From the IMG/VR virus record IMGVR_UViG_3300020438_000068, positions 1 through 46,603 of that record: DNA of 46,603 bases; one strand, given 5' to 3'. Both the position numbers and the translations under genes were made by a program. Below, in pieces: positions 1 through 19,170 of the stretch (position 1 is the stretch's first letter; every line of letters begins with the position of its first letter). Below the pieces are notes generated by a model. That model ran no database searches and had not been told where the DNA came from. It saw only the letters and a list, made by a program, of their open reading frames with translations. The DNA is from a virus.

Positions 1-55
1 GGGAGGGCGCTGGAGCACACCCGATCCGCATCATTTTGAAAGGGTGCGCCGATGA
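1..55 (+). CDS. Endolysin, 3' end only (partial)
   Basis: These bases encode the last 17 or so residues of the M15 peptidase seen complete at 45314-46036, including the final metal-ligand motif PDPHHFE and the TGA stop at 53-55. The gene is cut by the window edge, not broken. The stop overlaps the next start as ATGA. Confidence 0.85.
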   Translation, partial: GGRWSTPDPHHFERVRR

Positions 56-321
56 ATACCCCAATCAAGCCCACCAGCATGACACTTCAGATTGGGCAGA
101 TCATTGCGCTGGTCACAGCCGTGGCAGCTGGTGCCACCAAGATGACCACCCTTGAGGCTGATGCCAAAGAGGCACGCGATACAGCCGCAGAAACTAAGGC
201 TGAGATCAAAGATGTGCGCTCCGAACTCAGAAGACAGAGGGAGCTTCTGGCAAGGCTTGAGGGTGACAGCAGGGCAATCTTGCAAATCCTAAGAATGAGA
301 GGCGGTAACAATGGCCCGTGA
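52..321 (+). CDS. Small membrane/coiled-coil lysis-cassette protein
   Basis: An 89-residue protein with a short hydrophobic segment at about residues 13-28 and then a charged, heptad-like helix (about 32-80) rich in Glu, Lys, Arg and Ala. This is the layout of XhlA-like or holin-accessory proteins, but no family signature is certain. It starts with an ATGA overlap on the endolysin stop and overlaps the next gene by 11 bp, so it belongs to the lysis operon. The second copy at 46033-46302 differs at 15 bases, of which 14 are synonymous and one gives Ala25Ser. That is strong evidence that this frame is translated and under purifying selection. Confidence 0.8.
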   Translation: MNTPIKPTSMTLQIGQIIALVTAVAAGATKMTTLEADAKEARDTAAETKAEIKDVRSELRRQRELLARLEGDSRAILQILRMRGGNNGP

Positions 322-676
322 GTGCTTCGAAGCCATGGCCCTGGCCATTGCTGTGATCTTCCTCATCTTTGGCCTTTTTCGGCCTGGTGCTTGCGATGGG
401 TTTGCACAGTCAAAAAAACAGACCCCAGGGCAGGCGGCCAAGCAGAACACTGGTCAGATCGTTGAGGTCTGCAACACCGTGGGGCTCATACGCCTGATCC
501 TTGAGGCCGAAGATCGCAAGAAAACCAAACAACCCAAGAAGGTAACCGATGACACTACAGCCAGAAATGATGAAGGCTCTGGCGCTGTGCGCCGTGGCCA
601 CTTGGGGAATCACAGAGGCCAGCAAGCCTCTGGTCAAAAAGTGGATCGCAGACGCATGGAAACGGGCAGCAATTAG
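311..676 (+). CDS. Lysis-cassette protein with N-terminal membrane segment
   Basis: A 121-residue product with one hydrophobic segment (about residues 8-24) followed by a polar Lys/Gln-rich region. Cys28 follows the segment, but the preceding residues (Pro-Gly-Ala) do not form a good lipobox. The last 42 codons overlap the next gene in another frame. In the second copy at 46292 the frame is intact, with a mix of synonymous and conservative changes (for example Ile/Val, Thr/Ser, Val/Leu). Within the overlap the observed changes are nonsynonymous here and synonymous in the partner, so the tail of this protein looks less constrained. It may be a holin-associated or spanin-like protein; the function is not established. 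Confidence 0.65.
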   Translation: MARECFEAMALAIAVIFLIFGLFRPGACDGFAQSKKQTPGQAAKQNTGQIVEVCNTVGLIRLILEAEDRKKTKQPKKVTDDTTARNDEGSGAVRRGHLGNHRGQQASGQKVDRRRMETGSN

Positions 677-809
677 GCTGTCCGCTTTGCTGATTGGCGG
701 GGCCTTTGGCTTTGCCCTAGCACCCACGGCAGAGGGAGCCCTCACGGGCTTCGCTGGTGCTAGTCTTTCAGCGGTTATTGTTACCGCTATTAAGGCAAGA
801 CTTCAGTGA
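549..809 (+). CDS. Holin-like protein
   Basis: An 86-residue protein with hydrophobic stretches at about residues 9-20, 42-59 and 66-82 and basic residues between them, as expected of a small phage holin that permeabilises the inner membrane. It lies just after the endolysin in the lysis operon. A Shine-Dalgarno (AAGAAGGT) sits 5-6 bases before the ATG. In the second copy the three differences in this frame within the window are all synonymous (Leu, Ala, Thr codons), which supports it over the overlapping frame of 311-676. The holin assignment rests on size, topology and position, not on a recognised family motif. Confidence 0.7.
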   Translation: MTLQPEMMKALALCAVATWGITEASKPLVKKWIADAWKRAAIRLSALLIGGAFGFALAPTAEGALTGFAGASLSAVIVTAIKARLQ

Positions 810-1078
810 GCCTGGCCACTTGGATCACTTCGATCCTGGCATTTTTTGGTGGGGGGGCGTTAGTCAGGGCACTTTTTGCAAGGCGGACCCTGAGACGCAT
901 GGAGGGCCTCAAAAGCAGACTCTTAGAAGAGGAGACGGAAAGACTGGCCAGGGCTGAGGCTGAAAAGGCTGAAGCTATCGAGGGGCTGACAGTGCATGCA
1001 ACTGAGATTGATGAGGCGAGCCTTGATGGGTTGGCCGATCTTCTCAACCAAGCATTTGGAGACCCTGAAGATGATTAG
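806..1078 (+). CDS. Small membrane-anchored coiled-coil protein, lysis operon
   Basis: A 90-residue protein starting at GTG, which overlaps the previous stop as GTGA. Residues 4-24 form a membrane segment (Gly-rich GGGALV), and residues 28-62 a charged helix rich in Glu, Arg and Ala that should form a coiled coil. The acidic tail ends in PEDD. The layout is that of an inner-membrane spanin (Rz-like) or a holin accessory, and the next gene overlaps it by 8 bp, as Rz/Rz1 partners often do. The spanin reading is an inference from topology and order. Confidence 0.65.
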   Translation: MSLATWITSILAFFGGGALVRALFARRTLRRMEGLKSRLLEEETERLARAEAEKAEAIEGLTVHATEIDEASLDGLADLLNQAFGDPEDD

Positions 1079-1415
1079 CACACTTGTTGTCCTTGCTTTA
1101 ATGTCGACCCCCACAGACTGCAATCTTGCCCACCCTATCCAGGCCGGTGACACCGCCAGCTGTGCCGGTCTAGTGTTGCCCCCTGATATGGTGAGAGCTG
1201 CACTGAAATGCAAACGGGTTGAGCTTCCAAAACTACAGGCTGAGCTTACTTATGAGAGGGAGGCCTTAAGGTCTGCCAAGGCGAGCCATAGAGCTGAACT
1301 AAGCTATTACCAAGCCACCCTTAACACAGGCCCCCCGCCCTGGTGGGTAAAGCCTGTGATCGCCATTGCATTTGCTGGGATTGGGTATGCCGCTGGCTCA
1401 CTGGTGGCAAAATGA
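1071..1415 (+). CDS. Exported coiled-coil protein with C-terminal membrane anchor (spanin-like)
   Basis: A 114-residue protein. I choose the ATG at 1071, overlapping the previous stop by 8 bp, because the hydrophobic N-terminus (residues 1-13) then reads as a signal peptide. Cys17, Cys31 and Cys47 follow; a charged helix spans about residues 50-80; and a C-terminal membrane segment covers about 92-112 after a PPPWW motif. Signal peptide, periplasmic coiled coil and C-terminal anchor is the topology of a unimolecular spanin, which bridges outer and inner membranes at lysis. The residues before Cys17 (Pro-Thr-Asp) do not make a canonical lipobox, so lipoprotein processing is doubtful. Confidence 0.6.
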   Translation: MISTLVVLALMSTPTDCNLAHPIQAGDTASCAGLVLPPDMVRAALKCKRVELPKLQAELTYEREALRSAKASHRAELSYYQATLNTGPPPWWVKPVIAIAFAGIGYAAGSLVAK

Positions 1416-2725
1416 GCGACACGATCAAGGTTCAGATATTAGAGCTCTATAGAGAACTCAGGAGCGTTAGAAAGGTTGGCAAGGCACTTGGGATTGGAAA
1501 GGATAAGGTTAACCGCATTGTCAGGGATGCCATGGATTCAGGGTGGGAGGCCTACCAGCCAGTAGGGGACGGCCTCATTGATACCTCTGATGGTGAAACC
1601 AGAACCATACAGAGCAGCAAGGTCCACACGCTTGAAGATCTGCTCAGGGTGGCCAGAGTTGACCCGGCTGAGTGGGAGGTCACAAACCACAAGATCAACG
1701 CCTGGGAGGCCTTAGGCAAAGACAGTGAGATCATCACCCTGCATCAGGTCAAGGCAAGCCTCACCAAGCGCCCCAGCTGGTGGGTGAATAGGGTTGAGTG
1801 CAAGCCTATACCCAGAGAGCCAAGAAAGCCCACCAGAGGCCCCCGGCTGTGTGTGGTGATACCTGACACGCAAGTAGGGTACAGACGGCTGGAGAATGGC
1901 AGACTGCAACCCTTGCATGACGTTGAGGCCATGGATGTGGCACTCCAGTTGGTTGAGTATTTAGATGGGGCTCATGGGATTGATGAGATTGTACTTATTG
2001 GTGACATGCTTGACCTGGCACCCTGGGGCTCATACTCCACCGATCTAAGCCTTCGATGGACAACACAGCCCAGCTTGGTGGCCCTGCACCATTGGATCTC
2101 GCAGTTGAGGCAGGCGGCAAGGGGTGCCCACTGCCGCTATCTCGCCGGAAATCATGAGGCCAGAATTGAAAAGAGCCTAATGGATAGCGCCACGGGTGAG
2201 GCCGTTGGGCTAAAGCCTGCCAACAGCCTCGATGGTAAGCCGCTGATGTCAATACCCAACCTGCTAAGCCTTGACGCCTTAGACGTGGACTACATAGGCC
2301 CATATGGCACGCCGTACTGGTGGCAGGGTGTGCGCTTCCATCATGGCAAGCTGGTGAGGTCAAAGGGTGGGCAGACTGTCACGGCTATGCTTAACCAGGG
2401 ATACTCTCACAGCCAGGTGGTGGGACACATCCACAGGCGTGAGGTGGCCAGCCGAACCATACCAATACCCGACGCCCCAGGATACAAGACGATCACGGCC
2501 ATGAGCCCAGGGTGCCTCTGCAGGCTTGATGGTGCTGTCCCTCATGCAAAGGGTAGCTCTCAACTGGACTGGCAGCAGGCCATTGGGCTCATCTGGGCTG
2601 ATGACCTTGGCCACTCCATGAGCATGATACCCATTGACCTGGGCCGCGCTATGTATGACGGGCGCACCTTTGTGGGTAAAGATCGCACCGATGAGCTACG
2701 TGAGGCCACCGGCCTGCCATACTAA
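1412..2725 (+). CDS. HTH plus calcineurin-like metallophosphoesterase
   Basis: A 437-residue protein. The ATG at 1412 overlaps the previous stop as ATGA; a longer upstream frame is unlikely. Residues 5-42 look like a helix-turn-helix (KVGKALGIGKDKVNRIV). From about residue 146 the metallophosphoesterase motifs follow in order: PDTQ (Asp152, Gln154), GDMLD (197-201), GNHE (246-249), FHHG (309-312) and GHIH (338-341). The first motif carries Gln where many enzymes have a second metal-binding His (DxH). The fold hydrolyses phosphoester bonds with two metal ions; the substrate here is unknown. It is the last gene of the lysis-linked run, and a promoter-like region follows it. Confidence 0.85.
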   Translation: MSDTIKVQILELYRELRSVRKVGKALGIGKDKVNRIVRDAMDSGWEAYQPVGDGLIDTSDGETRTIQSSKVHTLEDLLRVARVDPAEWEVTNHKINAWEALGKDSEIITLHQVKASLTKRPSWWVNRVECKPIPREPRKPTRGPRLCVVIPDTQVGYRRLENGRLQPLHDVEAMDVALQLVEYLDGAHGIDEIVLIGDMLDLAPWGSYSTDLSLRWTTQPSLVALHHWISQLRQAARGAHCRYLAGNHEARIEKSLMDSATGEAVGLKPANSLDGKPLMSIPNLLSLDALDVDYIGPYGTPYWWQGVRFHHGKLVRSKGGQTVTAMLNQGYSHSQVVGHIHRREVASRTIPIPDAPGYKTITAMSPGCLCRLDGAVPHAKGSSQLDWQQAIGLIWADDLGHSMSMIPIDLGRAMYDGRTFVGKDRTDELREATGLPY

Positions 2726-2742
2726 GCACCTAACAACACTAC

Positions 2743-2842
2743 GTTTTTACGATTTATTCACTTTTATCCGTTTTCCCCTTTACATACCCTACCTCACCGG
2801 GTAAGGTATATACAGATGGTGAGGGAACAAAGGAGAAACAAA
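2743..2842 (+). promoter_or_regulatory. Promoter/leader element, copy A
   Basis: First of three related leaders. It contains the block GTTTTTACGATT (2743-2754), a candidate -35 TTTACA (2779-2784), a 17-base spacer, and TAAGGT (2802-2807) as -10. Inside it is the inverted repeat ACCTCA-N5-TAAGGT. Then comes TACAGATGGTGAGGGAAC and a strong ribosome site AAAGGAG before ATG 2843. The in-frame ATG at 2816 is treated as leader because the same bases are out of frame in copy C. Confidence 0.65.
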
Positions 2843-3088
2843 ATGAACAACGCAGCAAGCATGGTGATTTTCGTAGAGCGCAAGGCGGCAAATTTCTTCA
2901 ACCGCTTTCTGGTCAAGTGTCCTCGCACCAATGAGGTAAAGAGGTTTTCCTGTGTGACTGATGCCGCGAATTTTGTTGAGCGCCTTGAGGCCCTCGCTGC
3001 ATTCGATTCTAAGGATCGGATCGTTGTGATGAGTGAGGGTGAGACCCCTGAGCTTGGCATTCATTTCAGCCGGTGCGCGAACTTCTAA
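2843..3088 (+). CDS. Orphan small protein, slot A
   Basis: An 81-residue protein of unknown function, without a membrane segment, apparently mixed alpha/beta, with one Cys in the middle and one near the C-terminus. The start is set by AAAGGAG eight bases upstream. It is the first gene behind promoter copy A and is followed 33 bases later by the first of two paralogous genes. It has no similarity that I can see to the gene occupying the same position behind copy B, so the slot holds different cargo in each repeat. Confidence 0.65.
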   Translation: MNNAASMVIFVERKAANFFNRFLVKCPRTNEVKRFSCVTDAANFVERLEALAAFDSKDRIVVMSEGETPELGIHFSRCANF

Positions 3089-3090
3089 CC

Positions 3091-3249
3091 ATTGCCCGCA
3101 AGGGCTGAAGGGGTGGGCGTTATGTCTGCTTGTTTTTCTTCTTCTTCTTCCGTTTCCAATAACCAGCATCATGCGCTGATGCTTAAGGCCTTCAGCGTGG
3201 TTGAGCCGGTCAATGGTGACTGGCGTGACCCCATCAGAAGGGTGGCCCA
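3091..3249 (+). repeat. 159-bp direct repeat, copy 1
   Basis: It aligns to 3714-3872 with about ten substitutions and no gap. It covers the ribosome site and first 43 codons of the 3122 gene. In this copy the first bases lie after the stop of the preceding gene; in copy 2 they encode that gene's last codons. Confidence 0.85.
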
Positions 3250-3418
3250 CTTGGCCACGTTTCAGGCTGTGTGCGCTCACTACGGGGTGACCCTGGGTGA
3301 TGTGCTTGAGGCTGTGGAATATTTCACGGCCACCGCTGCCACAGTCAGCACTGATGCTGATGGGCGGACTGTGATCACTGCCCCAGGGTATAGGGCTGGG
3401 CCAGCCGGTGATCACTAG
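3122..3418 (+). CDS. Orphan protein, paralogue 1 of a duplicated pair
   Basis: A 98-residue protein of unknown function starting at ATG 3122 behind AAGGGGTG. Its first 43 residues, including a Ser-rich run encoded by CTT/TTC repeats and the segment LKAFSVVEPVNGDW, are almost identical to those of the gene at 3745. The C-terminal halves are unrelated. Here the second half (LATFQAVCAHYGVTLGDVLE and onward) looks like a helical domain with an extended tail. The shared part extends upstream of the start, so it is a DNA duplication (3091-3249 with 3714-3872). Confidence 0.65.
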   Translation: MSACFSSSSSVSNNQHHALMLKAFSVVEPVNGDWRDPIRRVAHLATFQAVCAHYGVTLGDVLEAVEYFTATAATVSTDADGRTVITAPGYRAGPAGDH

Positions 3419-3444
3419 GCTGCCAAGTGCCTGAAGGCATTAAC

Positions 3445-3533
3445 TTTTTACGATTTATCCACTTTTATCTGTACATACCCTACCTTATTAGGTAAGGTGT
3501 TTACAGATGGTGAGGGAAACAAGGAGAAACGAG
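3445..3533 (+). promoter_or_regulatory. Promoter/leader element, copy B
   Basis: Second copy. CTTTTTACGATTTATCCAC (from 3444) matches copy A. Candidate -35 TGTACA (3470-3475), 17-base spacer, TAAGGT (3493-3498). The inverted repeat is perfect here: ACCTTA-N5-TAAGGT. TTTACAGATGGTGAGGGAAAC and AAGGAG lead to ATG 3534. A small hairpin TGCC-tgaa-GGCA just before the T run could end transcription of the previous cassette. Confidence 0.65.
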
Positions 3534-3731
3534 ATGAGCAACGTAGACAGCAGCAGGTATGAGGCAGGGGAGAAAGTTACACACAAGGCAGAGGGGTATT
3601 CCGGTGTAGTGGCTGCAGACAGCGCAGCGTCAGGGTTTGGCGATAACTGGATCAGCGTTTGGTGGACCCTGCGAAGTGGTCGCATCGAGAGAAGGTCTGA
3701 TCACGTCAGCGCTATTGCCCGCAAGGGCTGA
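3534..3731 (+). CDS. Orphan small protein, slot B (SH3-like?)
   Basis: A 65-residue protein with a strong AAGGAG site eight bases before the ATG. The sequence GEKVTHKAEGYSGVVAADS followed by NWISVWW and a basic strand looks like a small beta-barrel (KOW or SH3-like) domain, often nucleic-acid or protein binding. This reading is tentative. It occupies the same position behind promoter B that the 2843 gene has behind promoter A, but the two proteins are not related. Its last codons come from the 159-bp repeat. Confidence 0.6.
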   Translation: MSNVDSSRYEAGEKVTHKAEGYSGVVAADSAASGFGDNWISVWWTLRSGRIERRSDHVSAIARKG

Positions 3732-3872
3732 AAGGGTGGGCGCTATGTCTGCTTGTTTTTCTTCTTGTTCTTCCGTTTCCAATAACCAGCATCATGAGCT
3801 GATGCTCAAGGCCTTCAGTGTGGTTGAGCCGGTCAATGGTGACTGGCTTGGCCCCATCAGAAGGGTGGCCCA
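3714..3872 (+). repeat. 159-bp direct repeat, copy 2
   Basis: Partner of 3091-3249, offset 623 bp. It encodes the end of the 3534 gene and the first 43 codons of the 3745 gene. Confidence 0.85.
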
Positions 3873-3987
3873 GCAGATGTGCCACAACCAGATGGTGAGC
3901 TATCTTGAGCAGGCTGACCGAGATCGCGCCCAGCAGGCAAGGACCAGGCGCAATCCTTTGAAGATGATTGAGGGAGGATCGCAATGA
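3745..3987 (+). CDS. Orphan protein, paralogue 2 of a duplicated pair
   Basis: An 80-residue protein starting 13 bases after the 3534 stop. Residues 1-43 repeat those of the 3122 gene with four substitutions and then diverge into a short basic, helical tail (QMVSYLEQADRDRAQQARTR). Conserved N-terminus with exchanged C-terminus points to recombination within the duplicated segment. The stop overlaps the next start (ATGA), so translation is coupled. Function unknown. Confidence 0.6.
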   Translation: MSACFSSCSSVSNNQHHELMLKAFSVVEPVNGDWLGPIRRVAQQMCHNQMVSYLEQADRDRAQQARTRRNPLKMIEGGSQ

Positions 3988-4376
3988 TTTACTACTTGAT
4001 AAGATACGGTGACAAGATTTGCACCCCTGGCCGGCGCTTTGATCTTTCAGTAATGGAGGGCAGCCGTGAGAATTTTGAGCGCCTGATGAGCGGTGAATAC
4101 TTCCCATCATGGCGTGAGCTTGACCAGGTGGAAAAGCTGACCCTTGAGCGAGAGCCTGAAGCGGCCCCCGTTGAACATTTCTGGGTGGCTACTTTCCGCG
4201 AGAACATAGCAGTGTTGGATACGGGGCAACATGTTGAAGAACAGCCCACATTGGTCTTCCCTGACCCTCTCACCGGGGCGGATCTTGAACTAATAAAGAC
4301 AATAATGATGAGAAACCCAAAAGAACTATCACTTGAGCGTCACCACGTCACCCAATGGAAGAAGATGCCTTTTTAG
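3984..4376 (+). CDS. Orphan protein of unknown function
   Basis: A 130-residue soluble protein beginning with an ATGA overlap behind GGGAGGATCGC, a good ribosome site. It starts with a short beta-like segment (MIYYLIRYGDKI), and the rest is mostly polar, with a Trp-containing stretch in mid-protein (VEHFWVATF). I recognise no motif. It lies in the accessory run between the phosphoesterase and the tail-tip genes. Confidence 0.6.
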   Translation: MIYYLIRYGDKICTPGRRFDLSVMEGSRENFERLMSGEYFPSWRELDQVEKLTLEREPEAAPVEHFWVATFRENIAVLDTGQHVEEQPTLVFPDPLTGADLELIKTIMMRNPKELSLERHHVTQWKKMPF

Positions 4377-4406
4377 GGGGGGGCGATGATCTTGGAGAGA
4401 TGAAAG

Positions 4407-4685
4407 ATGAACACCAAAAACACACACAGCACTACAGCACCACTAACAGAGCCCTGCCTCAGGGCAGAGCTTGAGGCCATAGAGGCTGCAACCATTAAAC
4501 AGGCTGAAGCCCTAGCAGAGGCAGAGGCAGAGCTTGAGAACGCCAAAGAGAAGGCTGAGAAAAGAGATAAGGCACTTAACCGGCTGTGGGAGTTGAGACA
4601 GAAAACGGTGATGGCAAAGACTACCCGCTTACACATTGAAGAGAGGCTGAAAAGTACAGCTCTTTTTGATTTGCTAAACAATTGA
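4407..4685 (+). CDS. Coiled-coil orphan protein
   Basis: A 92-residue protein that after about residue 18 is almost entirely one Ala/Glu/Lys-rich helix with heptad spacing, so it is probably a coiled-coil oligomer. It has no signal peptide or membrane segment. The ATG is preceded by GGAGAGATGAAAG. Thirty bases separate it from the gene before, and a hairpin follows it. Function unknown. Confidence 0.6.
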   Translation: MNTKNTHSTTAPLTEPCLRAELEAIEAATIKQAEALAEAEAELENAKEKAEKRDKALNRLWELRQKTVMAKTTRLHIEERLKSTALFDLLNN

Positions 4686-4689
4686 AGTG

Positions 4690-4714
4690 CACACCCTTAC
4701 CCATTGTGGTAGGG
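4690..4714. other. Inverted repeat after the coiled-coil gene
   Basis: ACCCTTACC and GGTAGGGT form an inverted repeat with one bulge and a six-base loop. No T run follows, so it is not a classic terminator. The half-site ACCCTACC is the same word found in all three promoter/leader elements, here on the other strand, so it may be an additional binding site for the same regulator. Confidence 0.4.
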
Positions 4715-4756
4715 TTAGATCATAGCCTGACACACACCGGGCTGGAGGGATAAAAC

Positions 4757-4933
4757 ATGAGCATTAAAACCCGACTGGGGCGACTGCCCCAGTGGTATAG
4801 GGAGAGGATCAACCGTGGCACCAGAGACAAAAGGCCAGCACACAGAGCGATACGACAAGATAAAGGCCGAATTTGCACACCGGAGAGCAATAGTGAGCCT
4901 GCTGGGGGAACGGTTCAAACCGAACAACATTGA
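4757..4933 (+). CDS. Possible small basic protein, overlapping the next gene
   Basis: A 58-residue frame rich in Arg. It has the best ribosome site in the area: the leader ACACACCGGGCTGGAGGGA ends six bases before its ATG, and the same leader precedes the gene at 5658. It overlaps the 4815 gene by 119 bp in a different frame. Either it is a real overlapping gene, or translation starts here and restarts at 4815. Its later codons look like a shadow of the other frame. Confidence 0.35.
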   Translation: MSIKTRLGRLPQWYRERINRGTRDKRPAHRAIRQDKGRICTPESNSEPAGGTVQTEQH

Positions 4934-5177
4934 TGGCCTCAGGTTAGCCGTGGGCACCTCTAAACCCAGACTGATAGAGAGCCTAAGAGATGGAGAGGTT
5001 GAGGGGTCAAGAAACGGGCTAGGGGCCGATAGGCCACGATCTGAGCTCATCAATGAAGCGCTTGGCCTAATGACCCACATTGATAAGGATGAGACCGTCA
5101 AAAGGCTCAGAGCCTTGGCTGATGAAATCGAGACGGGCACAGTTGGTGCTGATGTTTTTGACGCACTGCCCTGGTGA
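4815..5177 (+). CDS. Orphan protein of unknown function
   Basis: A 120-residue soluble, mainly helical protein starting at GTG behind GGGAGAGG. A segment near residues 38-60 (NNIDGLRLAVGTSKPRLIES) resembles a helix-turn-helix, but I would not call a family. The C-terminal 40 residues form an acidic helix (DKDETVKRLRALADEIETG). It is the last gene before promoter copy C. Confidence 0.6.
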   Translation: MAPETKGQHTERYDKIKAEFAHRRAIVSLLGERFKPNNIDGLRLAVGTSKPRLIESLRDGEVEGSRNGLGADRPRSELINEALGLMTHIDKDETVKRLRALADEIETGTVGADVFDALPW

Positions 5178-5216
5178 CCCGCCCCTTTGGCAGACTTAAA
5201 CACCTGAACACATAGC

Positions 5217-5325
5217 GTTTTTACGATTGTCATTTTTTGAGGGCGATTCCTCTTGCCTATACCCTACCTCACCGGGTAAGGTTTATACAGATGGTGAGGG
5301 AACGAAACAAACAAGGAGAGACAAG
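5217..5325 (+). promoter_or_regulatory. Promoter/leader element, copy C
   Basis: Third copy. GTTTTTACGATT begins at 5217; the following 30 bases differ from A and B. TTGCCT (5253-5258), an 18-base spacer and TAAGGT (5277-5282) are the candidate promoter. The core TACCCTACCTCACCGGG is identical to copy A. TACAGATGGTGAGGGAAC and AAGGAG lead to ATG 5326. The upstream ATG is out of frame with the gene here, which shows that it is leader sequence. Confidence 0.65.
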
Positions 5326-5661
5326 ATGAGCAAGAGACTTGAACTGAGAGAAGACAACGCGAGCCTGAGCGTTCTGCTAATCGATGGGGTCACAGTGGTC
5401 AGCGTCTGGGATGCCTGGGCAAATGATGGGCAGGCACTGGCTGACTTTATGCAGCCCCATGATGCAGGGGAGTGGCACACTCACTGCAGAAGCGAAAGTT
5501 CAGAGGCGCACGGTGATCTTGTTGCGCGATCTAATGGGCAGCTGGGTGTCATAGTGGAGGATCCTGCTGGCTTCTCTGAGGTTGTTGCTCAGCTGCAAAC
5601 CATAAGACCTGTACTAGCAACCGCCCGCACACACACCGGGCTGGAGGGAATTGAAAAATGA
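5326..5661 (+). CDS. Orphan protein, slot C
   Basis: A 111-residue acidic soluble protein of unknown function. The N-terminal 35 residues alternate hydrophobic and polar (LSVLLIDGVTVVSVWDAW), suggesting a beta sheet followed by helices. The start is fixed by AAGGAG. Its 3' end carries the leader ACACACCGGGCTGGAGGGA that serves as ribosome site for the next gene, and its stop overlaps that start as ATGA. Confidence 0.6.
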   Translation: MSKRLELREDNASLSVLLIDGVTVVSVWDAWANDGQALADFMQPHDAGEWHTHCRSESSEAHGDLVARSNGQLGVIVEDPAGFSEVVAQLQTIRPVLATARTHTGLEGIEK

Positions 5662-6215
5662 GCGAGACGATAAGACTTGCAGAGGTCTTGAGGGCCGCAA
5701 AGGTCAGTTATAGGATCCTACATGCCATGACGAAAGAGGGCCTAATTGAGAGCCCGGTTAAGGGGCCGAACCCTCAGGGCCAGGGTCAGGTCTCTCTCTA
5801 TCCTGTGTCTGTGATTGACAAGATCAGACAGGTTCAAAACGCTAAACAGGGAAGGTGGGCAGGGTACAAGGCTGCCCCTGTAGAGCCTCCCCGGCAAAGC
5901 GGGCACAGCTTTTACCATGTCAGCGGAGATGACAGATTTAGGTGTGATGTTATGCCTTTCACGGTTTTGATTAGAGAGGGGGACCGGGCTTCAATGGGCT
6001 GGGCACTTGAGCACCTGGAGAGCTTTCAGCACTGCTCAAAAATATCCTCCCAGGGCAGTGAGGCCATCACTGGTACTGCTTGGGTTGCATACAATGACAT
6101 GGGTGATCCTGTTGATGTGGCACCCGTGACCGCTGAGGGTGAGGAGAGGATCCTTCTGCAGTATGGTGGGCACCATGTTGAGAAGGTCAAGATCGTGGAA
6201 GGTGGGAAGCTATGA
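5658..6215 (+). CDS. MerR/excisionase-like HTH protein with unknown C-terminal domain
   Basis: A 185-residue protein. Residues 3-55 (LAEVLRAAKVSYRILHAMTK, then a glycine-rich wing and PVSVIDKI) have the shape of a winged helix as in MerR-type regulators, suggesting DNA binding. The remaining 120 residues show no motif I know, although the segment around FYHVSGDDRFRCDVMPF is conserved-looking. It may control the neighbouring small-gene cassettes; that is only an inference from position. Translation is coupled to the genes on both sides by ATGA overlaps. Confidence 0.6.
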   Translation: MSETIRLAEVLRAAKVSYRILHAMTKEGLIESPVKGPNPQGQGQVSLYPVSVIDKIRQVQNAKQGRWAGYKAAPVEPPRQSGHSFYHVSGDDRFRCDVMPFTVLIREGDRASMGWALEHLESFQHCSKISSQGSEAITGTAWVAYNDMGDPVDVAPVTAEGEERILLQYGGHHVEKVKIVEGGKL

Positions 6216-6334
6216 GTGAGCCAGTGACAATCACAATCACACGGACAGTGACCACAGCCGAGGCCCAGAGTGAGGGTGGGTCTGTGATCTCACTTCTCAG
6301 CGCAATTCTGGGCATCATATGGGCAATGATGTGA
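6212..6334 (+). CDS. 40-residue single-span membrane protein
   Basis: A short frame beginning with ATGA at the previous stop. Residues 1-22 are polar, Thr-rich and predicted outside the membrane. Residues 24-40 (SVISLLSAILGIIWAMM) form one hydrophobic helix running to the C-terminus. Coupled translation and the clear amphipathic design argue that it is real. It is the last rightward gene before the convergent tail-tip gene. Confidence 0.5.
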   Translation: MSEPVTITITRTVTTAEAQSEGGSVISLLSAILGIIWAMM

Positions 6335-6366
6335 GGGGGGGTCAAGCGGAGGCCCAAGGCCTAACC

Positions 6367-8169
6367 CTAATCAACCCCCATAGAGTCAAACTCAGCCTTG
6401 ACCGCGTCAAGGTTCACAGTGTTTTCTAAGATGTTTATGGTGCCCGCACTGGCACCCAGGCCAAAAAAGTCATTGAGCATGCCCGCTGGCCCGTTCTGAC
6501 TCTCTTGGGCGTGATAGATCTCACCCTGCTTGGTAGTGGTTGAGTCATAGATAGCAAAAGCTGTGGCACCCTTGGCATCACCGGTTGAGATTGACCCACC
6601 CCAGGCCGTGATCGAGGATATTGGAATTCTGACAAAGGCCTTCTCTGTGCCCGTGGGCACCCTCCCTGAATCCTCGATTGAATAAGGCTGATTTGAACTC
6701 ACAACCACGATATCATTAGGCCAATTGCCCAGGGCTGAATGCCAGACCTGTCCACCGTTTTGGAGCACCATCTCACCCATGTTGTCCCACTCCGTGTTTG
6801 ATGATGGCTGGATCGCCCACGTGTTCTGTGTCGAATTGTTACCAGGTGAAGGGGTGCCGCTAAAGCCTGAAGCGCTGCCCCCAATTCTGGTGAGCTCACC
6901 TCCTACCGCGTCACCATAACAGGCCCCCTGGTACTCAAATTGATCTGAGGCACAGGCCGTGGTGTCAAAGTCTGAGTTACCTGAGACCGCTGAAGCGCTC
7001 AAGCCCATACCGCTGAAAGGCCAGCTTGATGTGGGTGGCTCCGGGAAGAATACGATCCCGTTGGTGGCATTGGCTCTGGCTGTAAACCTAATATAAAGGT
7101 GCCCGCTGTAGAGATAGATCTCCTGGACCCCTCCAGTGGTTGACTCATTCTGGGTGGGCTGATTGGTGGGAAAGCTAGCCGGGAATAGTGGCGGGTTGAC
7201 AAAGATCCCGGTGGGCAGAACCGATGGCCGGATCTCGCTGACTGTCACATCGTGGGGCCTTACGTAGTTGTACCCAATCTCTAAGATCAAACCCTCACCC
7301 GTCTTGGCCTTGGCGCCATACTCTAGGGCGCGTGGGTGTTTATCCTCAGCTGCTGGTGATTGACTGCGATGCACACACTTGAGGGCGCGCACTGGGAAGT
7401 GATCACCCCCACCCATGCCACCTGCCTGCAAGCCACCGGTTGAGGGCTTGAGAATCATGGCCCAGCCCGAGCCGCTGGCAGGATCAATGATATTGCCGCT
7501 GGAATCTTTAAGTCTTAGGGCAATCTTGCACTCATCCCACAAGGATGAGGTGAGCTTGTCATCTGTGCTTAGCCCTGCGTTGGTCCTGTCGTTGTCAACA
7601 TATTGCCTTAGTGAGCTTATGTGCTGAACACTATTCCCACCCGTCAAGCTGATGCCGTTAGCATCTGGGCTGTCCAGGGTTGCAGGCAGACTGTGAGGCA
7701 GACCAAAAAACCAGCTGTACAGGTTTTGACTGGTGGCCCCCGAGGTATACACCCGCGACTCATTAGGGTTGAGGTTGAACTCATGGCCCTGGTACCTGAA
7801 GATCACCTCAAGGGCCTCACAATATGGTGAGGTGTATGGTATCGGGATCTGATCAATCATCAGAACGTTGACACCGTCAAGCTCAATACCGGCAGCAGCG
7901 TGATCCCAATAATGGATCCGGTTAGGGTTTGCCCAGAACCCTGTGTTGTTTGCAGGCCTTAGGCCAGTAGAATCCAGGGGGGCAGCGTCACCGGTTCCCC
8001 AGGGAGAATTGAAAAAATGCTTGAAGCTCAAGCAGGGGTGGTAGGCCAACAGATGGTTAACCACCTCAACCATGCGGGTCAGGGGCTCTGACCTCAGGGG
8101 CCGCCTCCACTCCCTCACTGCCAACTGTGGAGGTGTCAGCCTTGTTTTGCTAATCGGTGTATTGCTCAT
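6367..8169 (-). CDS. Virion protein, probable tail tip or receptor-binding protein
   Basis: A 600-residue protein, Gly/Ser/Asn rich with many beta-like segments and no membrane span, as is usual for tail-tip appendages. It is the last gene of the leftward structural block and is translationally coupled (ATGA) to the large hub protein upstream. No enzyme motif is visible. The N-terminal 100 residues (for example WREWRRPLRSEPL-like basic helix, then beta-rich) may attach to the hub, and the C-terminus probably contacts the host. Its role is inferred from size, composition and position. Confidence 0.65.
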   Translation of the reverse strand: MSNTPISKTRLTPPQLAVREWRRPLRSEPLTRMVEVVNHLLAYHPCLSFKHFFNSPWGTGDAAPLDSTGLRPANNTGFWANPNRIHYWDHAAAGIELDGVNVLMIDQIPIPYTSPYCEALEVIFRYQGHEFNLNPNESRVYTSGATSQNLYSWFFGLPHSLPATLDSPDANGISLTGGNSVQHISSLRQYVDNDRTNAGLSTDDKLTSSLWDECKIALRLKDSSGNIIDPASGSGWAMILKPSTGGLQAGGMGGGDHFPVRALKCVHRSQSPAAEDKHPRALEYGAKAKTGEGLILEIGYNYVRPHDVTVSEIRPSVLPTGIFVNPPLFPASFPTNQPTQNESTTGGVQEIYLYSGHLYIRFTARANATNGIVFFPEPPTSSWPFSGMGLSASAVSGNSDFDTTACASDQFEYQGACYGDAVGGELTRIGGSASGFSGTPSPGNNSTQNTWAIQPSSNTEWDNMGEMVLQNGGQVWHSALGNWPNDIVVVSSNQPYSIEDSGRVPTGTEKAFVRIPISSITAWGGSISTGDAKGATAFAIYDSTTTKQGEIYHAQESQNGPAGMLNDFFGLGASAGTINILENTVNLDAVKAEFDSMGVD

Positions 8170-11100
8170 GTGATCGTGACCCCTCCGATGTAACCATAAA
8201 TAGCGTGAGGCGTTGGGACCGTATCCACAGCTGAGCGCATTGGCACCACAAACCCGATCACGCTTGACCCGCTGGCCGTCAACCCATGGGCAGAGCTCAG
8301 AGTGATGGCAGTATCCGTGAGCGCAGTGATTGTGTGCTTGGTGGCGTTGTCCATGTCTCCAATTGCATGGAGCAACACCTCATCCCCCGTGGCTAAAATC
8401 TTGAACCCTTCAGCGTCAACCGTTTGAGCTCCAGAATGGCGATCTGAGGCGATCACAAGGGTTGTGCTATTGGTCACCCCTGTGACGCTTAGAGATGGCC
8501 CCCAGCCGCTGCCATCAGCCCCATACATTACAAAACGAGCACGCGCACCGGGCTGCCAGCCGTTCTCAGTCAAAGAGCGTAGCCGCACCAGCTCACTTGT
8601 GAGGCCCATTGACTTGACGCCCCTGAGGTGAGGATGAGTGAGGGTGTATGTCCCCCCTACCCTGGCCTGAACACTAAGGCCTGACCTGATTGTCATCTCA
8701 TAGATTCTACGTGGTAAGGCCAGCTCATACCGGAGGCGTGAGAAGATTGGCCGCAATTGGGCCACCCGGCTGAGGTCATTGGCCAGCTCTACCCCTGGAA
8801 GAGGCACGCTGATGGCCTTCTCTTCACCGATGATATCTATGCTGACAGCATCTTTGACCCGCTGCGTCTGGTGACCCCCTTGGGCATCATAGGCAAAATG
8901 AAATTCAAAGACGTTAGCCTTGGCAAGCTCTGTGTCCGATCTTGGGTTGGGATTGCTGGCAATGTCTGCCGTGGTGATGTTGGCCACCACCTGTGCCCGA
9001 TTTGGCAAGCCCAGTGGGACAGCAGCGATCCTGCACTGGCCTGCATCATTGACCACCAGATCAAGCACATACCCACAAGCCCTGAGAAGGCCGCCAATGA
9101 CCTCCTTGATTGACTGCCCTGAACGCCAGACAGGCCGGAACTGAGCATCAGGGATGGGGCTTGTGATGCTGAGGAAGCTGTCAACATCAACCTCAGTGCC
9201 AATGCTGTCAGCGCTGGCCCCCGCCGTTGAACCGTCTGTCAGGCCTGCACCATATGGCAGCCGGTCATAAGTGGATGAGGTGATTGAGTTTCCACCGCTT
9301 GAGCAGAGCAGCTGAAGCAGCACTTCACCAATGGGCGCACCTTGGGCAAATACTGCAGCCGTTTTGAGCTTGATCCTATCCTGGCCAGCGTACTCAGCAA
9401 AGCTCTGCAGCCTCTGGGGCTCTGCCTGGCTGTGGTCCTCAAGATCTGCCAGTGTCAACAGTGTCACAACTGAGCCATCACCCAGCGTGGTGGACGTGGC
9501 AAGGTTGACCTTAAGGATCCCAAGTGGCCCATCTTCTGGGTGCTCAGCCTCAATGAAAAGTGAACCAGCGCTTGGCACGCGGACAGGGCCATCAACCAAC
9601 AGGTAGGTCTCGCCCTCTTGATACCAGGCCCGCGCAATGGTGACAGGGACCTCAACAAATGAGGCGCCAGAGGCACGCGCACCGGGCACCGTCACTGAGA
9701 TGGTGTTGTCGTAGTCTTGGTCACCCACAGCAAAGGCCATATGGCTGAGGGTCTGGGTATGGTCACGCCTTGGGCGGGGCTCAAGATTGCCGCTCTCTAG
9801 CTTCCACCTGTGCTCATACCCCGTGGTGCTGTCAAAGCTCTCATAGGCCTCTGAAGCAAAGCCGCCATCAGCAAAGTGGGCAGTGAGGACACCCTCACCG
9901 AGCACTGAGATGTTGGACATAAACCGCAGGACCCGCGCGTCAAGATCAAGGTACAGCTGCAGCAGGCCACCACCGCCATCAATTGCCTCTTCAGTCTTCC
10001 AGTACGGAGAGTTGAAGCCTTGCCTGAATCCGCCTGAGCCCGTGGCATTAATGGCCTCAACTAAGCCGCTGGGCCAACCCACGATCCTGACTTCACCAGG
10101 GCTTGGTGTTCCCCCACCATAAATGAGGCTGACCTCTCTGATGTGTGAGCCTTCAGCGTTTTTAATTTGTGCCGAATCATTCCCCACAAAAGCACTTGAG
10201 CTCAGGGGGATCTTGTATCCATCACCATCAACCCCCCGCTGTTCAATTGCCTGCAAGTCTGTGAGCTTTATGGCTGGAGCGTCAAAGGCTTGGCCTGCCT
10301 GGGCTCCTGGTGGGGTTTGGGTACCAGCTGGAGCGGTGGCCTTGTAAACCCTGAACGATGGATCGCCACCAGAATCAACCACCAACGGGATCGATAAGGG
10401 GTGATCTGTATCACCAAGATTAGCGTTGTAGATTGCAGTGTAGCGCTCATAACCCACAAGGCTCATCGGTACATACCCAGAGCCGTGCCAGGGGTCATTG
10501 AAAGTGCCAGCAAGCCCGGTCATATTGTTAATCAGTGAACCCTTAGGCGTCCGCTCAAGGAAATCAATCCAATGGCCTGTGCCGTACCCAAAAGCATGAG
10601 CCTTGCTTGAGAGGTGCAGATCTTGGGCCTGGGTGCCCATCTCTAGATCCAAGAGAGCCGTGAGGGGCGAGATCTTAAGGCTGACCGTGGCCACCTTCCC
10701 TGATGTTGAGATCTCAGGCTCTGAAGCCATAAAGCCTCTCCACCGCTCCACCCAGTCAACCCCCGTGCCATCGGCCAGGGTTGTGCCCTCATAGATGACC
10801 GCCCGCCGACCCTTGAAGTATACCGCTGGCTTGGATGCTATCAGTTGGACCTGTGTGCTGGTGTCATATAGATGCTCTGATTTTCGAGTACCCATCACAG
10901 CCCGCTGGACAAGCTCAATGGTCTTGGCTGAGGCGTTCACCGTTCCACAGAGGAATGCCTCTTGACCAATGTGGAGCACATCCCCTGAGCTAAAGGTTGA
11001 GCTTGGATCGCGCTCCATTGTGATAGTGATGGGTGTGGCAGCCGTCTGCCTGATCTCCTGGCCCGGCGCCAGCTCCATTGATGAATCAGCACCAGCAAAA

Positions 11101-11411
11101 CCGAGCCGCCCAAAAACCATGCCAGCATCAAAGCTGTCAGCGTTGCCCTCAAGCTCTTTAGAGCTCAAGACAATCTCAACCGGCCTACATTCGATCACAC
11201 TTTCCCGAACATTGAGCCGACGCTCAAACCTCATGCCCATCTTAGGGACAACAGCAACCCGCCGCTCATAGCTGGTGGCTGTGCCGTTTAGATCATAGGT
11301 TGATGCTGGTGGCTCTACTGACCCATAGAGAACGGGCACGCCTGCAACTTTAAAGTAAAAGCAAGGCCGGCGCTCTTTGCTTACAGTGGGACTGGTGGAC
11401 GTGATCGGCAT
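8166..11411 (-). CDS. Large tail hub/tip protein
   Basis: A 1081-residue protein, the first gene of the leftward run below the Erf island. The N-terminal 350 residues are beta-rich (tail-protein-like), and around residues 740-900 there is a segment with the layout of a tail hub domain (FRPVWRSGQSIKEVIGGLLR, then a long beta region). In siphophages this position and size fit the central tail hub or the lambda J-like host specificity protein. I do not see a catalytic motif. The start ATG lies behind a weak ribosome site. Assignment to the hub is by size, context and composition. Confidence 0.65.
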   Translation of the reverse strand: MPITSTSPTVSKERRPCFYFKVAGVPVLYGSVEPPASTYDLNGTATSYERRVAVVPKMGMRFERRLNVRESVIECRPVEIVLSSKELEGNADSFDAGMVFGRLGFAGADSSMELAPGQEIRQTAATPITITMERDPSSTFSSGDVLHIGQEAFLCGTVNASAKTIELVQRAVMGTRKSEHLYDTSTQVQLIASKPAVYFKGRRAVIYEGTTLADGTGVDWVERWRGFMASEPEISTSGKVATVSLKISPLTALLDLEMGTQAQDLHLSSKAHAFGYGTGHWIDFLERTPKGSLINNMTGLAGTFNDPWHGSGYVPMSLVGYERYTAIYNANLGDTDHPLSIPLVVDSGGDPSFRVYKATAPAGTQTPPGAQAGQAFDAPAIKLTDLQAIEQRGVDGDGYKIPLSSSAFVGNDSAQIKNAEGSHIREVSLIYGGGTPSPGEVRIVGWPSGLVEAINATGSGGFRQGFNSPYWKTEEAIDGGGGLLQLYLDLDARVLRFMSNISVLGEGVLTAHFADGGFASEAYESFDSTTGYEHRWKLESGNLEPRPRRDHTQTLSHMAFAVGDQDYDNTISVTVPGARASGASFVEVPVTIARAWYQEGETYLLVDGPVRVPSAGSLFIEAEHPEDGPLGILKVNLATSTTLGDGSVVTLLTLADLEDHSQAEPQRLQSFAEYAGQDRIKLKTAAVFAQGAPIGEVLLQLLCSSGGNSITSSTYDRLPYGAGLTDGSTAGASADSIGTEVDVDSFLSITSPIPDAQFRPVWRSGQSIKEVIGGLLRACGYVLDLVVNDAGQCRIAAVPLGLPNRAQVVANITTADIASNPNPRSDTELAKANVFEFHFAYDAQGGHQTQRVKDAVSIDIIGEEKAISVPLPGVELANDLSRVAQLRPIFSRLRYELALPRRIYEMTIRSGLSVQARVGGTYTLTHPHLRGVKSMGLTSELVRLRSLTENGWQPGARARFVMYGADGSGWGPSLSVTGVTNSTTLVIASDRHSGAQTVDAEGFKILATGDEVLLHAIGDMDNATKHTITALTDTAITLSSAHGLTASGSSVIGFVVPMRSAVDTVPTPHAIYGYIGGVTIT

Positions 11412-11616
11412 AGCCCGATCAATGTAGCATTTTCAAGCCCTTGACGCATACACACAGATCAAAGGTTCGAAATTTAGATATTTTCTATTGTGTGTGTGGG
11501 TGTGAATATGTACGCTATCTAGGTCAGCACGGAGGGTCCAAAGCTGGCAAAGACTAAACAAAGACCACCCCCAGCCAATATCACACACACCGGCTGGGAG
11601 ATGGAGGGATCGCCAG
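11412..11616. promoter_or_regulatory. Divergent intergenic region between tail hub (-) and Erf island (+)
   Basis: About 205 bases without a gene. It holds an AT-rich stretch (AAATTTAGATATTTTCTATTG near 11467), a GT run (TGTGTGTGTGGGTGTG) and, 80 bases on, an AC run (CACACACACC) that could pair with it. TTGTGT and TACGCT, 17 bases apart, could be a weak rightward promoter. At 11583-11609 the leader CACACACCGGCTGG plus ATGGAGGGA resembles the leaders at 4731 and 5631. No clear promoter for the leftward gene is seen. Confidence 0.4.
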
Positions 11617-11769
11617 ATGATGAGCATCACCAGGCCCTTAATGGGTATCAGGGAAGAGATCTGTATGCAACCAATACTGACACACCTTGGCAGCATGCGT
11701 GCACCGCTTGCTTGTTGCAGCCTGTTTGGCTTGCTAATACTGAACACGCGTTCAGCTGGAGGTGAGTGA
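11617..11769 (+). CDS. 50-residue hydrophobic leader gene before erf
   Basis: A short frame with a good ribosome site (TGGAGGGAT seven bases upstream). It overlaps the next gene by one base in a TGATG junction, which suggests coupled translation. The product has a hydrophobic C-terminal segment (PLACCSLFGLLIL). The inverted repeat CTGAAC-acgc-GTTCAG lies near its 3' end. It may be a membrane peptide or only a translational leader for the annealing protein. Confidence 0.45.
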   Translation: MMSITRPLMGIREEICMQPILTHLGSMRAPLACCSLFGLLILNTRSAGGE

Positions 11770-12365
11770 TGGGTTGGTCAGAAGAGTGCGACAAAATATT
11801 TTCAGCAATGTCTGACGCTCAACGCGCCTGCGCTGTACCCTTCAAGGGGAAAAAAGGCTACGGTTATGACTATGCAGATCTAACCAATGTGAAGGCGGCC
11901 TATGCTGAGGCTGTGGCTGGGTCTGTGGGCTTGGCAATCCTTGATGAGTGTGTCCCCATTCCTGAGGCCGGTGCAGGTTTCTGGTTAGTCACAACCGTTG
12001 TCCATAAGCACTCGGGGCAATGGACTAATACTCGGTGTCCTATCATGTGGGACACTGGGGCCAAGGTGGCCATGCAGTCTTACGGGTCAGCCGAAACCTA
12101 TGCACGCCGATACAACCGCCTTAAACTCTTTGATCTAGCCCCGTCAGATGCCTCAATTGAGGGTGATGGAGCTGGCCATGATCCAAACAAGGCACCACCT
12201 CAAGGCAGGCCACAGGCTAACAATCAAGCCCCACAGCATAGGCCGCCTCAAAACACTAGGCCAACACACCAGGGTAATGGTGGGGGGCCGCCTCAGATAA
12301 ACCTTCAATCACAACAGAATTTTAGCGAGGGCAGATACATTGGACCCAATGACCGCAGAAGATAA
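11769..12365 (+). CDS. erf: Erf-family single-strand annealing protein
   Basis: A 198-residue protein. Residues 20-130 match the Erf superfamily: GYGYDYADLTNVKAAYAEAV, a beta region, then the signature VAMQSYGSAETYARRYNRL followed by an acidic Asp/Glu segment. The C-terminal 60 residues are Pro/Gln/Asn rich and disordered. Erf-type proteins anneal complementary single strands during phage recombination and circularisation. I prefer ATG 11769, at the TGATG junction, over the GTG three bases upstream. The gene lies alone, opposite in direction to the surrounding tail genes, about 14 kb from the exonuclease that would be its natural partner. Confidence 0.85.
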   Translation: MGWSEECDKIFSAMSDAQRACAVPFKGKKGYGYDYADLTNVKAAYAEAVAGSVGLAILDECVPIPEAGAGFWLVTTVVHKHSGQWTNTRCPIMWDTGAKVAMQSYGSAETYARRYNRLKLFDLAPSDASIEGDGAGHDPNKAPPQGRPQANNQAPQHRPPQNTRPTHQGNGGGPPQINLQSQQNFSEGRYIGPNDRRR

Positions 12366-12594
12366 CCAGGAAACACCAGGCATTGATGAGGCCCTTGAGG
12401 GCTTGCAGCGCTTGGCCTATGAGCTCGAAACGGCAGAAGAATACACGCCAACCCTGATGGCTGGGCTTGTGTCTCGGATCTTTGGGGTGGGTATTGCTCT
12501 CATGCTCAGGCTCAACCTGTGTCCGGTCATGCGGGGGCTTGGTGTTGGGGCAGGGCCCTACTGCGGCAACAGGAACACTAATGGGCAACCCTAG
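12349..12594 (+). CDS. Small protein downstream of erf
   Basis: An 81-residue frame overlapping the end of erf by 17 bp. Residues 1-35 are acidic and helical; residues 40-70 contain one hydrophobic stretch (LMAGLVSRIFGVGIALML) that could cross the membrane. The end overlaps the convergent gene at 12578 by 17 bp. The ATG at 12349 is chosen over a TTG nine bases upstream. Function unknown; the last 15 residues look less protein-like. Confidence 0.5.
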   Translation: MTAEDNQETPGIDEALEGLQRLAYELETAEEYTPTLMAGLVSRIFGVGIALMLRLNLCPVMRGLGVGAGPYCGNRNTNGQP

Positions 12595-12835
12595 ATGATT
12601 TGCCCTCTACCTGTTGAGAGATGCTTAGCAGGTAGTGATTGAGTTTTTGGATATCTTTTCGGGTCTCATTTCTGAGCGCCCCGATCTCAGCTCTCAAAAT
12701 CAGCACATCTGTAATGGCCTCTTTGGCTAGACGGTCAAGTCTGGCCTGAGTCATTTGGCCCATCCAGATTGATATGATTGAAAGGGTGGCCAGCCCCACA
12801 TGAGCGAGGCTGGCCAATCCTTGAGGGTCAAACAT
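12578..12835 (-). CDS. Small membrane/coiled-coil protein after the tail fibre
   Basis: An 85-residue protein with one membrane segment (about residues 8-26) and then a long charged helix (about 28-75), the same design as the lysis-cassette protein at 52-321. It starts three bases after the fibre gene stop. XhlA-like lysis accessories have this layout, and some phages place one behind the fibre genes. It ends tail-to-tail with the erf operon, overlapping it by 17 bp. Confidence 0.6.
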   Translation of the reverse strand: MFDPQGLASLAHVGLATLSIISIWMGQMTQARLDRLAKEAITDVLILRAEIGALRNETRKDIQKLNHYLLSISQQVEGKSSRVAH

Positions 12836-12838
12836 CGG

Positions 12839-14563: not shown

Positions 14564-14589
14564 TTATTCATTTTCCTTGCTGGTGGGCT

Positions 14590-15174
14590 TCACCAGATAA
14601 AATATTCAGAGCCGTTGCAGATTAAAGAAACTGCAGCATACGGCTCACTAAGATTAAGGCTCGCCCCTCCATCGATAGCCCCGACAATAGACACCGAATT
14701 TGACCCGCCCGCTGTACGCTTCACCACAAACCGCTTACCATCCAGGCCCGTGGGGCTTGGCAGGTTAATGGTGAGAGCCCCGCTGGAAGGGTCCGCAAAA
14801 ATCATAAAGTCAGATGTTGCAACAGTGACCGGGCTGTCAGCCTGGCCCACTGTTCGCGTTGCAACATTTGAGCCGCCTTGGCCGCTGCTGGCCAAGTTCG
14901 CGACTGCCCACCCCTTTGTCACAAGGTGTGCATCTGTTAACGGGTCAAGGGCCGTGATTCTACCGGTAGACGTTAAGTCACCATCGACGCTCACCAAGCT
15001 TGGCTGACAGTCAACTTTGGAGACACCATCAACCACCAGGATGGCCCTCGATTCAATGAGCGTGATCTTCGTATCCGCCCCAGAATCAGACCCGATTAAA
15101 TCACCACCAGAGACCGTGAGATCATCGGGGGTGAATGTCACCCCCTTGGTTAACCCATATCGCCCTTTGGCCAT
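14590..15174 (-). CDS. Tail appendage/fibre protein
   Basis: A 194-residue protein. The middle contains DPLTDAHLVTKGWAVANLA, close to the tKxYVD motif common in phage fibre proteins. The C-terminal half (SGALTINLPSPTGLDGKRFVVKR and onward) is beta-rich, like head domains of appendages. It lies between a small virion protein and the large fibre gene in one leftward operon. Its role in the adsorption apparatus is inferred from the motif and position. Confidence 0.7.
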   Translation of the reverse strand: MAKGRYGLTKGVTFTPDDLTVSGGDLIGSDSGADTKITLIESRAILVVDGVSKVDCQPSLVSVDGDLTSTGRITALDPLTDAHLVTKGWAVANLASSGQGGSNVATRTVGQADSPVTVATSDFMIFADPSSGALTINLPSPTGLDGKRFVVKRTAGGSNSVSIVGAIDGGASLNLSEPYAAVSLICNGSEYFIW

Positions 15175-15199
15175 TGTTCGCCCCTCCTACCTTCTCAGC

Positions 15200-18016: not shown

Positions 18017-18031
18017 AACCCACCCCCAATC

Positions 18032-19168: not shown

Positions 19169-19170
19169 TT

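Follow-up and report, generated by a model that had tools for sequence, protein, structure and literature searches.

The extended start-associated sequences (ESAS) of the cluster K mycobacteriophages have been characterized as promoters of a SigA-like kind whose inverted repeat is a plausible target of a repressor, and in phage Adephagia the ESAS motif is absent from the immunity region (PMC11373665). The DNA of phage Anaya illustrates the arrangement: TTGACA lies inside the left arm of the ESAS and TANNNT follows at approximately 17–18 bp, at the right arm. The promoter-early stem-loops (PeSLs) of T4-type phages reportedly combine a promoter with a terminator stem-loop. Such cassettes have been proposed to promote shuffling by homology (Arbiol 2010 and Comeau 2014, as cited in PMC4503421). 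In the halovirus HF2, nine intergenic repeats were cloned before a reporter and all had promoter activity (PMC8707807). The stretch of DNA analyzed here, hereafter the window, is the 46.6-kb (46,603-nucleotide) IMG/VR virus record IMGVR_UViG_3300020438_000068. It contains three leaders of approximately 110 bp (A, B and C), each of which precedes a different, unrelated small gene, designated gene A, B or C after its leader (81, 65 and 111 amino acids, respectively). The repeated element of these leaders, a putative promoter-operator, is real and well-defined, and is of a new sequence type in a new phage. The closest known system is ESAS, with the start-associated sequences (SAS), of cluster K; by analogy, the leader would work like an ESAS, but it is not one. 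The leaders probably mark a small phage regulon, in which promoter-operator leaders under one regulator head operons that came from duplicated, then replaced or diverged, units.

The first-pass annotation had recognized three copies of one element before different small orphan genes, and this observation was confirmed, with some corrections. The upstream box, TTTTTACGATT, occurs exactly three times in the window (at 2744, 3445 and 5218; 0.15 occurrences expected with up to one mismatch), as does an invariant part of the leader, TACAGATGGTGAGGGAA (at 2811, 3502 and 5286; 0.13 expected with up to three mismatches). All three copies also align across approximately 31 bp that end in the upstream box. 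Leaders A and B differ at 17 of 90 positions (about 20% plus an indel), and their longest exact shared run is 17 bp; that of A and C is 24 bp. The upstream box is a possible activator or UP-like site. The distances from box to dyad (Table 1) set the copies apart by about one helical turn, which is only suggestive with three copies. Genes A, B and C each have an AAGGAG-type ribosome site, as had been claimed, but ribosome sites of this strength are not peculiar to the three genes. A terminator-like stem precedes the leader at copy B only (3426–3441), and none is conserved across all three leaders. Comparison with Rfam gave one match, below the cut-off and attributable to chance. Within the invariant leader, ATGGTGAGGGAA (2816, 3507 and 5292) is in frame with genes A and B, where it could be an N-terminal extension or a leaderless start; in copy C the frame runs into a TGA overlapping the first codon of gene C, and could encode a short leader peptide. 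A second, short start-associated repeat, ACACACACCGGGCTGGAGGGA, has two exact copies (4730–4750 and 5629–5649), each directly before a start codon (4757 and 5658); a further, weaker copy lies at 30780, ahead of the 30821 region.

Each leader contains a perfect copy of a 22-bp dyad, ACCYTACC-N6-GGTARGGT. The earlier version, ACCTYA-N5-TAAGGT, undersized this core, and its count of three holds for the leaders; a fourth dyad core, inverted and with one mismatch, is present in addition. No site with one mismatch or fewer was found in 60 first-order Markov (Markov-1) random sequences of the window's composition, and the next-best sites in the window have four mismatches. When the arms are extended to 15 bp, 12 of 15 positions are paired in A and in B, 11 in C and 7 in the fourth site; in copy B, arms of 19 nt are 84% complementary. 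Dyad B differs from dyads A and C at four of the six spacer bases and at none of the 16 arm bases, and the fourth site retains the arms though the rest of the leader is absent. Conserved arms around a changed spacer, together with the bare arms of the fourth site, form the pattern of a protein-binding site, and the dyad is therefore regarded as a putative operator on DNA. An RNA hairpin was also considered as the main function of the dyad and was rejected. The fold is strong in copy B only (z = −4.15, compared to −1.12 for A and −1.87 for C) and the arms keep the same C/A mismatch, for which reasons the DNA site is preferred.

The dyad is predicted to overlap a promoter. In leaders A and B a single base pair separates a −35-like hexamer from the dyad, and TAAGGT, a −10 of the TANNNT type, lies 17 bp downstream. 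The predicted hexamers are in position but weak. Support for their register comes from three large metagenomic phages, G001 (IMGVR_UViG_3300041409_000610), G002 (IMGVR_UViG_3300036773_000146) and G003 (IMGVR_UViG_3300049259_000204), which were fetched only for the dyad, so that the −35, copy number and orientation were not selected for. The sequence TTGAC-N5-CTACC-N6-GGTAGNNT occurs in 12, 4 and 9 exact copies, respectively, with more when mismatches are allowed, and all exact copies lie on one strand in each genome. The sites are upstream of genes and their flanking bases are often still complementary; in the largest contig, 20 sites were inspected, and nearly all are followed by a GGAGG-type ribosome site with a start codon. 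The register of these sites, TTGAC-17 bp-TAGNNT, matches the −35/dyad/−10 register of the leaders. The two groups share the CTACC-N6-GGTAR palindrome, placed in the same register between −35 and −10, whereas the metagenomic sites differ in their −35 (TTGAC), their −10 (TAGNNT), their symmetrical arms and their many copies. Three window proteins were sought in these contigs and none was found. L050, listed with the three contigs, has no near match in INPHARED.

The likeness to cluster K ESAS (PMC3203893, PMC11373665) is one of anatomy. Both are repeated only within the phage, are intergenic and precede unrelated small genes; both have an imperfect inverted repeat, with arms of approximately 15–17 bp, that runs from the −35 to past the −10; both have conserved sequence at the ribosome site; and both are missing from the intergenic region of the immunity repressor. 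The SigA-like hexamers of ESAS are 17–18 bp apart; the predicted hexamers of the leaders have this spacing, but they are weak and the consensus scan does not call them. The imperfect inverted repeat of approximately 17 bp that characterizes ESAS is matched by the 15-bp arms and 6-bp spacer of the leaders. Unlike ESAS, the leaders have an extra upstream box, number three to four copies in one cluster rather than at least seven dispersed copies, and include a regulator candidate within the proposed regulon. The dyad sequence is also unrelated (Anaya TTGACATGCATACAG...CTGTATGC), and neither dyad nor leader was found in the Anaya stretch examined. The 13-bp SAS, GGGATAGGAGCCC, has no match within three mismatches before genes A, B and C, and its total in the window is not above chance. 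The analogy with cluster K drawn in the first-pass annotation thus holds, but for ESAS and not for SAS.

Other systems are less similar. The PeSLs share a repeated promoter element that adjoins small orphan genes, and they offer an analogue of gene exchange, but the leaders do not have their promoter-plus-terminator composition and shuffling is not seen. The 17-bp palindromic repeats of cluster O mycobacteriophages (PMC4351075) and the stoperators of cluster A are likewise dispersed, short, phage-specific sites that are presumed to bind protein, but they are much more numerous and are not part of a repeated promoter-leader. The HF2 repeats resemble the leaders as repeated intergenic sequences, but the virus and its promoters are archaeal, and the sequences and positions of the repeats are conserved across a genus.

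It is proposed that each leader would be a host sigma-A-type promoter whose spacer and −10 are overlaid by an operator palindrome; a conserved transcript start and the ribosome site would come next. A dimeric regulator encoded by the phage would bind the palindromes and jointly set the operons headed by genes A, B and C; the open reading frames (ORFs) behind the fourth site would probably belong to the same regulon. The common layout of putative promoter and operator supports the single co-regulated set proposed earlier. Since the −10 lies within the dyad, repression is the more likely sign of regulation. The predicted MerR-like protein of operon C is the best candidate for the regulator and would then control itself. 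Pfam MerR_1 matched this protein with E = 0.05 over its whole length and 0.009 over the N-terminus, a single-sequence structure model had a predicted local distance difference test (pLDDT) score of approximately 70–85 over the MerR-like part, and Foldseek returned MerR-family structures with a probability near 1. The XRE-type repressor (30247–30672) was considered as regulator of the dyads and rejected; control by this protein is unlikely because the dyad is absent from its intergenic region.

Several observations weigh against a regulon of this kind. A sigma-70 consensus scan of 2600–6300 called no promoter, the predicted hexamers included, and TAAGGT is a weak −10 by E. coli standards; a weak, regulated or actinobacterial-type promoter is therefore assumed. 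Both MerR_1 matches are below the cut-off, and the Foldseek matches (E of at least 0.04) are non-significant by E-value. Classical MerR promoters have a spacer of 19–20 bp with the dyad centered in it; here, the spacer is 17–18 bp and the dyad extends through the −10. The fourth site has neither the extended arms nor the upstream box. The leaders number only three, and recent descent may account for part of the conservation seen in the 5' leader. No collection searched provided a leader-bearing relative for comparison.

The origin of the units is best approached from the sequence behind them. The 159-bp repeat that had been reported downstream of copies A and B is present and 95% identical. 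Within it, a short spacer is followed by the initial ~42 codons of the paralogous ORFs A' and B' (from 3122 and 3745), whose C-termini differ; the longest exact run shared by its two copies is up to 29 bp. Rather than a neutral flank, the repeat is thus partly coding. No such repeat follows copy C, which leaves A and B as the single pair of slots with brackets on either side; the notion of conserved flanks that enclose unrelated genes applies to A and B, and not to C. The downstream repeat differs at 8 of 159 positions (5.0%), significantly less than leaders A and B (Fisher p = 0.0008). Unless selection differs, the two flanks are therefore not of one age, and a single duplication under a uniform clock does not account for them. 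In copy B, the opening 18 nt of the repeat supply the final five codons of gene B together with its stop, whereas in A the same 18 nt follow 2 nt after the stop of gene A, out of frame. Such a remnant is just what would be expected had gene A replaced a B-like gene, and it is a hint of such an event; alternatively, the small GCCC-GCAA-GGGC hairpin may have a role of its own. Alignments of genes A, B and C with each other were unconvincing and A gave no BLASTP match to C; homology among the three was rejected. None has a significant match in the libraries tried, including phage proteins. By codon position, their G+C content is like that of other phage genes, and so does not have the composition of morons; as for the moron layout, they have predicted promoters of their own and terminators are not consistent.

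The first-pass annotation had attributed this arrangement to cargo exchange by homologous recombination at the flanks. In such a reading, leader and downstream repeat would serve as homology arms through which phage recombinases exchange the enclosed genes with co-infecting phages or prophages, as has been proposed for PeSLs. Unrelated genes do lie within repeated flanks, with junctions at gene start and gene stop, and behind gene A the last six codons of gene B recur out of frame. The lesser divergence of the downstream repeat and the encoded Erf-like and RecE/YqaJ-like recombinases also agree with exchange. It nevertheless appears unlikely, given that the collections searched hold no second genome with other cargo in the same slot, copy C is without the downstream repeat, and A' and B' diverge beyond a repeat that is itself partly coding. 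A length of 23–27 bp has been quoted for Red-beta pairing (PMC3945230); leaders A and B (17 bp) fall below it, whereas sufficient lengths are shared by A and C (24 bp) and by the downstream repeats (29 bp). It is unlikely that the flanks are a working cassette-exchange device that swaps small genes into a pre-wired regulon by Erf/RecE-type recombination with co-infecting strains, and exchange cannot be seen because no leader-bearing related genome was found. The associated role against host defenses is speculation, since the proteins of genes A, B and C match no defense model beyond chance, nor any phage protein.

Plain duplication and divergence accounts for the tandem order and same orientation of the units, and for the likeness of leaders A and B into the first codons of their genes (MNNAAS and MSNVDS). 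In such a history the promoters were kept by selection, the genes diverged or were illegitimately replaced, and the flanks have no role; phage mosaicism requires no special device. The lack of convincing residual similarity among genes A, B and C and the unequal divergence of the flanks make this improbable as a full account. It shares its view of origin with the regulon proposed above and differs from it on regulation only. An assembly artefact, in which an assembler joined two strain variants of one locus in tandem as units A and B, has to be considered because the contig mixes strain variants. The contig ends (1–622 and 45982–46603) overlap by 622 bp with 94.2% identity. Nucleotide differences in the first complete ORF of the overlap are mostly silent, with one residue changed, and for this reason the ends appear to represent two genuine strain variants of a single genome of approximately 46 kb that is circular or circularly permuted. 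The record apparently wraps round into the second variant, and the sample would contain at least two. The downstream repeats differ to a similar degree, but the divergence of leader A from leader B is far greater than that of the end variants. Neither genes A and B nor the C-termini of A' and B' are related, and copy C and the fourth dyad are separate and untouched by such a join. A misjoin is the least probable of these explanations.

The phage encodes an integrase, an XRE-type repressor, a Mu-like portal, a tape measure protein, an Erf-like annealing protein and a RecE/YqaJ-like exonuclease, and because of these genes it is probably temperate. The host is probably actinobacterial, as judged from the metallophosphoesterase, whose best matches are in Clavibacter and Microbacterium phages, and the portal, which matches Mycobacterium and Gordonia phages; matches of the tape measure and methyltransferase were uninformative. 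Window bases 1–20000 have no near DNA match among 50,697 phage records. Leader patterns gave nothing in IMG/VR, or chance matches within unrelated sequence, and the leader was not found in GTDB genomes. Scans of IMG/VR with the portal, terminase and MerR-like protein found no relative; scans with the metallophosphoesterase found distant relatives only, and the repeated element was absent at the loci checked. An M15 endolysin, small putative membrane genes and the metallophosphoesterase come ahead of the leader block. In Clavibacter phage CN1A, endolysin, holins and metallophosphoesterase are found in this order too, and two different genes follow, indicating that this spot carries different genes in different phages. 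The operons of the proposed regulon would have arisen from duplicated leader-gene units at this spot, prone to accretion and downstream of the lysis genes and metallophosphoesterase, with later replacement or divergence of their coding parts. Elsewhere, at 29517–29699, at least four copies of a TGCACTCTGAGTGTGC-like palindromic repeat lie within a putative replication initiation gene (29080–29976) and are possible iterons or an origin.

Table 1. Features of the leader block and its surroundings, with positions in the window.
Feature	Position	Strand	Remarks	Basis
Leader A	2723–2842	+	Upstream box, predicted promoter, putative operator dyad, conserved 5' leader, ribosome site of gene A	Repeat families, alignments
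Leader B	3424–3533	+	Strongest extended dyad	Repeat families, alignments
Leader C	5197–5325	+		Repeat families, alignments
Upstream box of A, TTTTTACGATT	2744–2754	+	42 bp before dyad, start to start	
Upstream box of B	3445–3455	+	32 bp before dyad	
Upstream box of C	5218–5228	+	43 bp before dyad	
Predicted −35 of A, TTTACA	2779–2784	+	17-bp spacer	
Predicted −35 of B, TGTACA	3470–3475	+	17-bp spacer	
Predicted −35 of C, TTGCCT	5253–5258	+	18-bp spacer	
Putative operator dyad A	2786–2807	+	ACCCTACC-N6-GGTAAGGT; last six bases, TAAGGT (2802–2807), are the predicted −10	
Putative operator dyad B	3477–3498	+	Predicted −10 at 3493–3498	
Putative operator dyad C	5261–5282	+	Predicted −10 at 5277–5282	
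Fourth dyad	4694–4715	-	Inverted, one mismatch; before the 4757 and 4815 ORFs; rest of leader absent	
Invariant leader, TACAGATGGTGAGGGAA	2811–2827 (A), 3502–3518 (B), 5286–5302 (C)	+		
Gene A	2843–3088	+	81-aa orphan; no significant match	
Downstream repeat, copy A	3091–3249	+	Starts 2 nt past stop codon of gene A	
ORF A'	3122–3418	+	98 aa; N-terminal ~42 residues common with B'	
Gene B	3534–3731	+	65-aa orphan; last five codons and stop inside downstream repeat	
Downstream repeat, copy B	3714–3872	+	159 bp, 95% identical to copy A	
ORF B'	3745–3987	+	80 aa; paralogue of A'	
130-aa orphan	3984–4376	+	Overlaps end of B'; likely same operon	
92-aa orphan	4407–4685	+	Likely same operon	
120-aa orphan behind fourth dyad	4815–5177	+	Overlapped by 58-aa ORF at 4757–4933	
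Gene C	5326–5661	+	111-aa orphan; no significant match	
Candidate regulator	5658–6215	+	185 aa; predicted MerR-like winged helix, residues 1–62; start overlaps end of gene C	

Finally, if the proposed regulon is correct, palindrome-embedded promoters, known from the ESAS of cluster K, would be a recurring design. A similar anatomy is seen here and in three large metagenomic phages, with sequence that is unrelated or only partly shared. The window would also offer a candidate regulator, none being known for ESAS, and a defined place in which to seek turnover of small phage genes.

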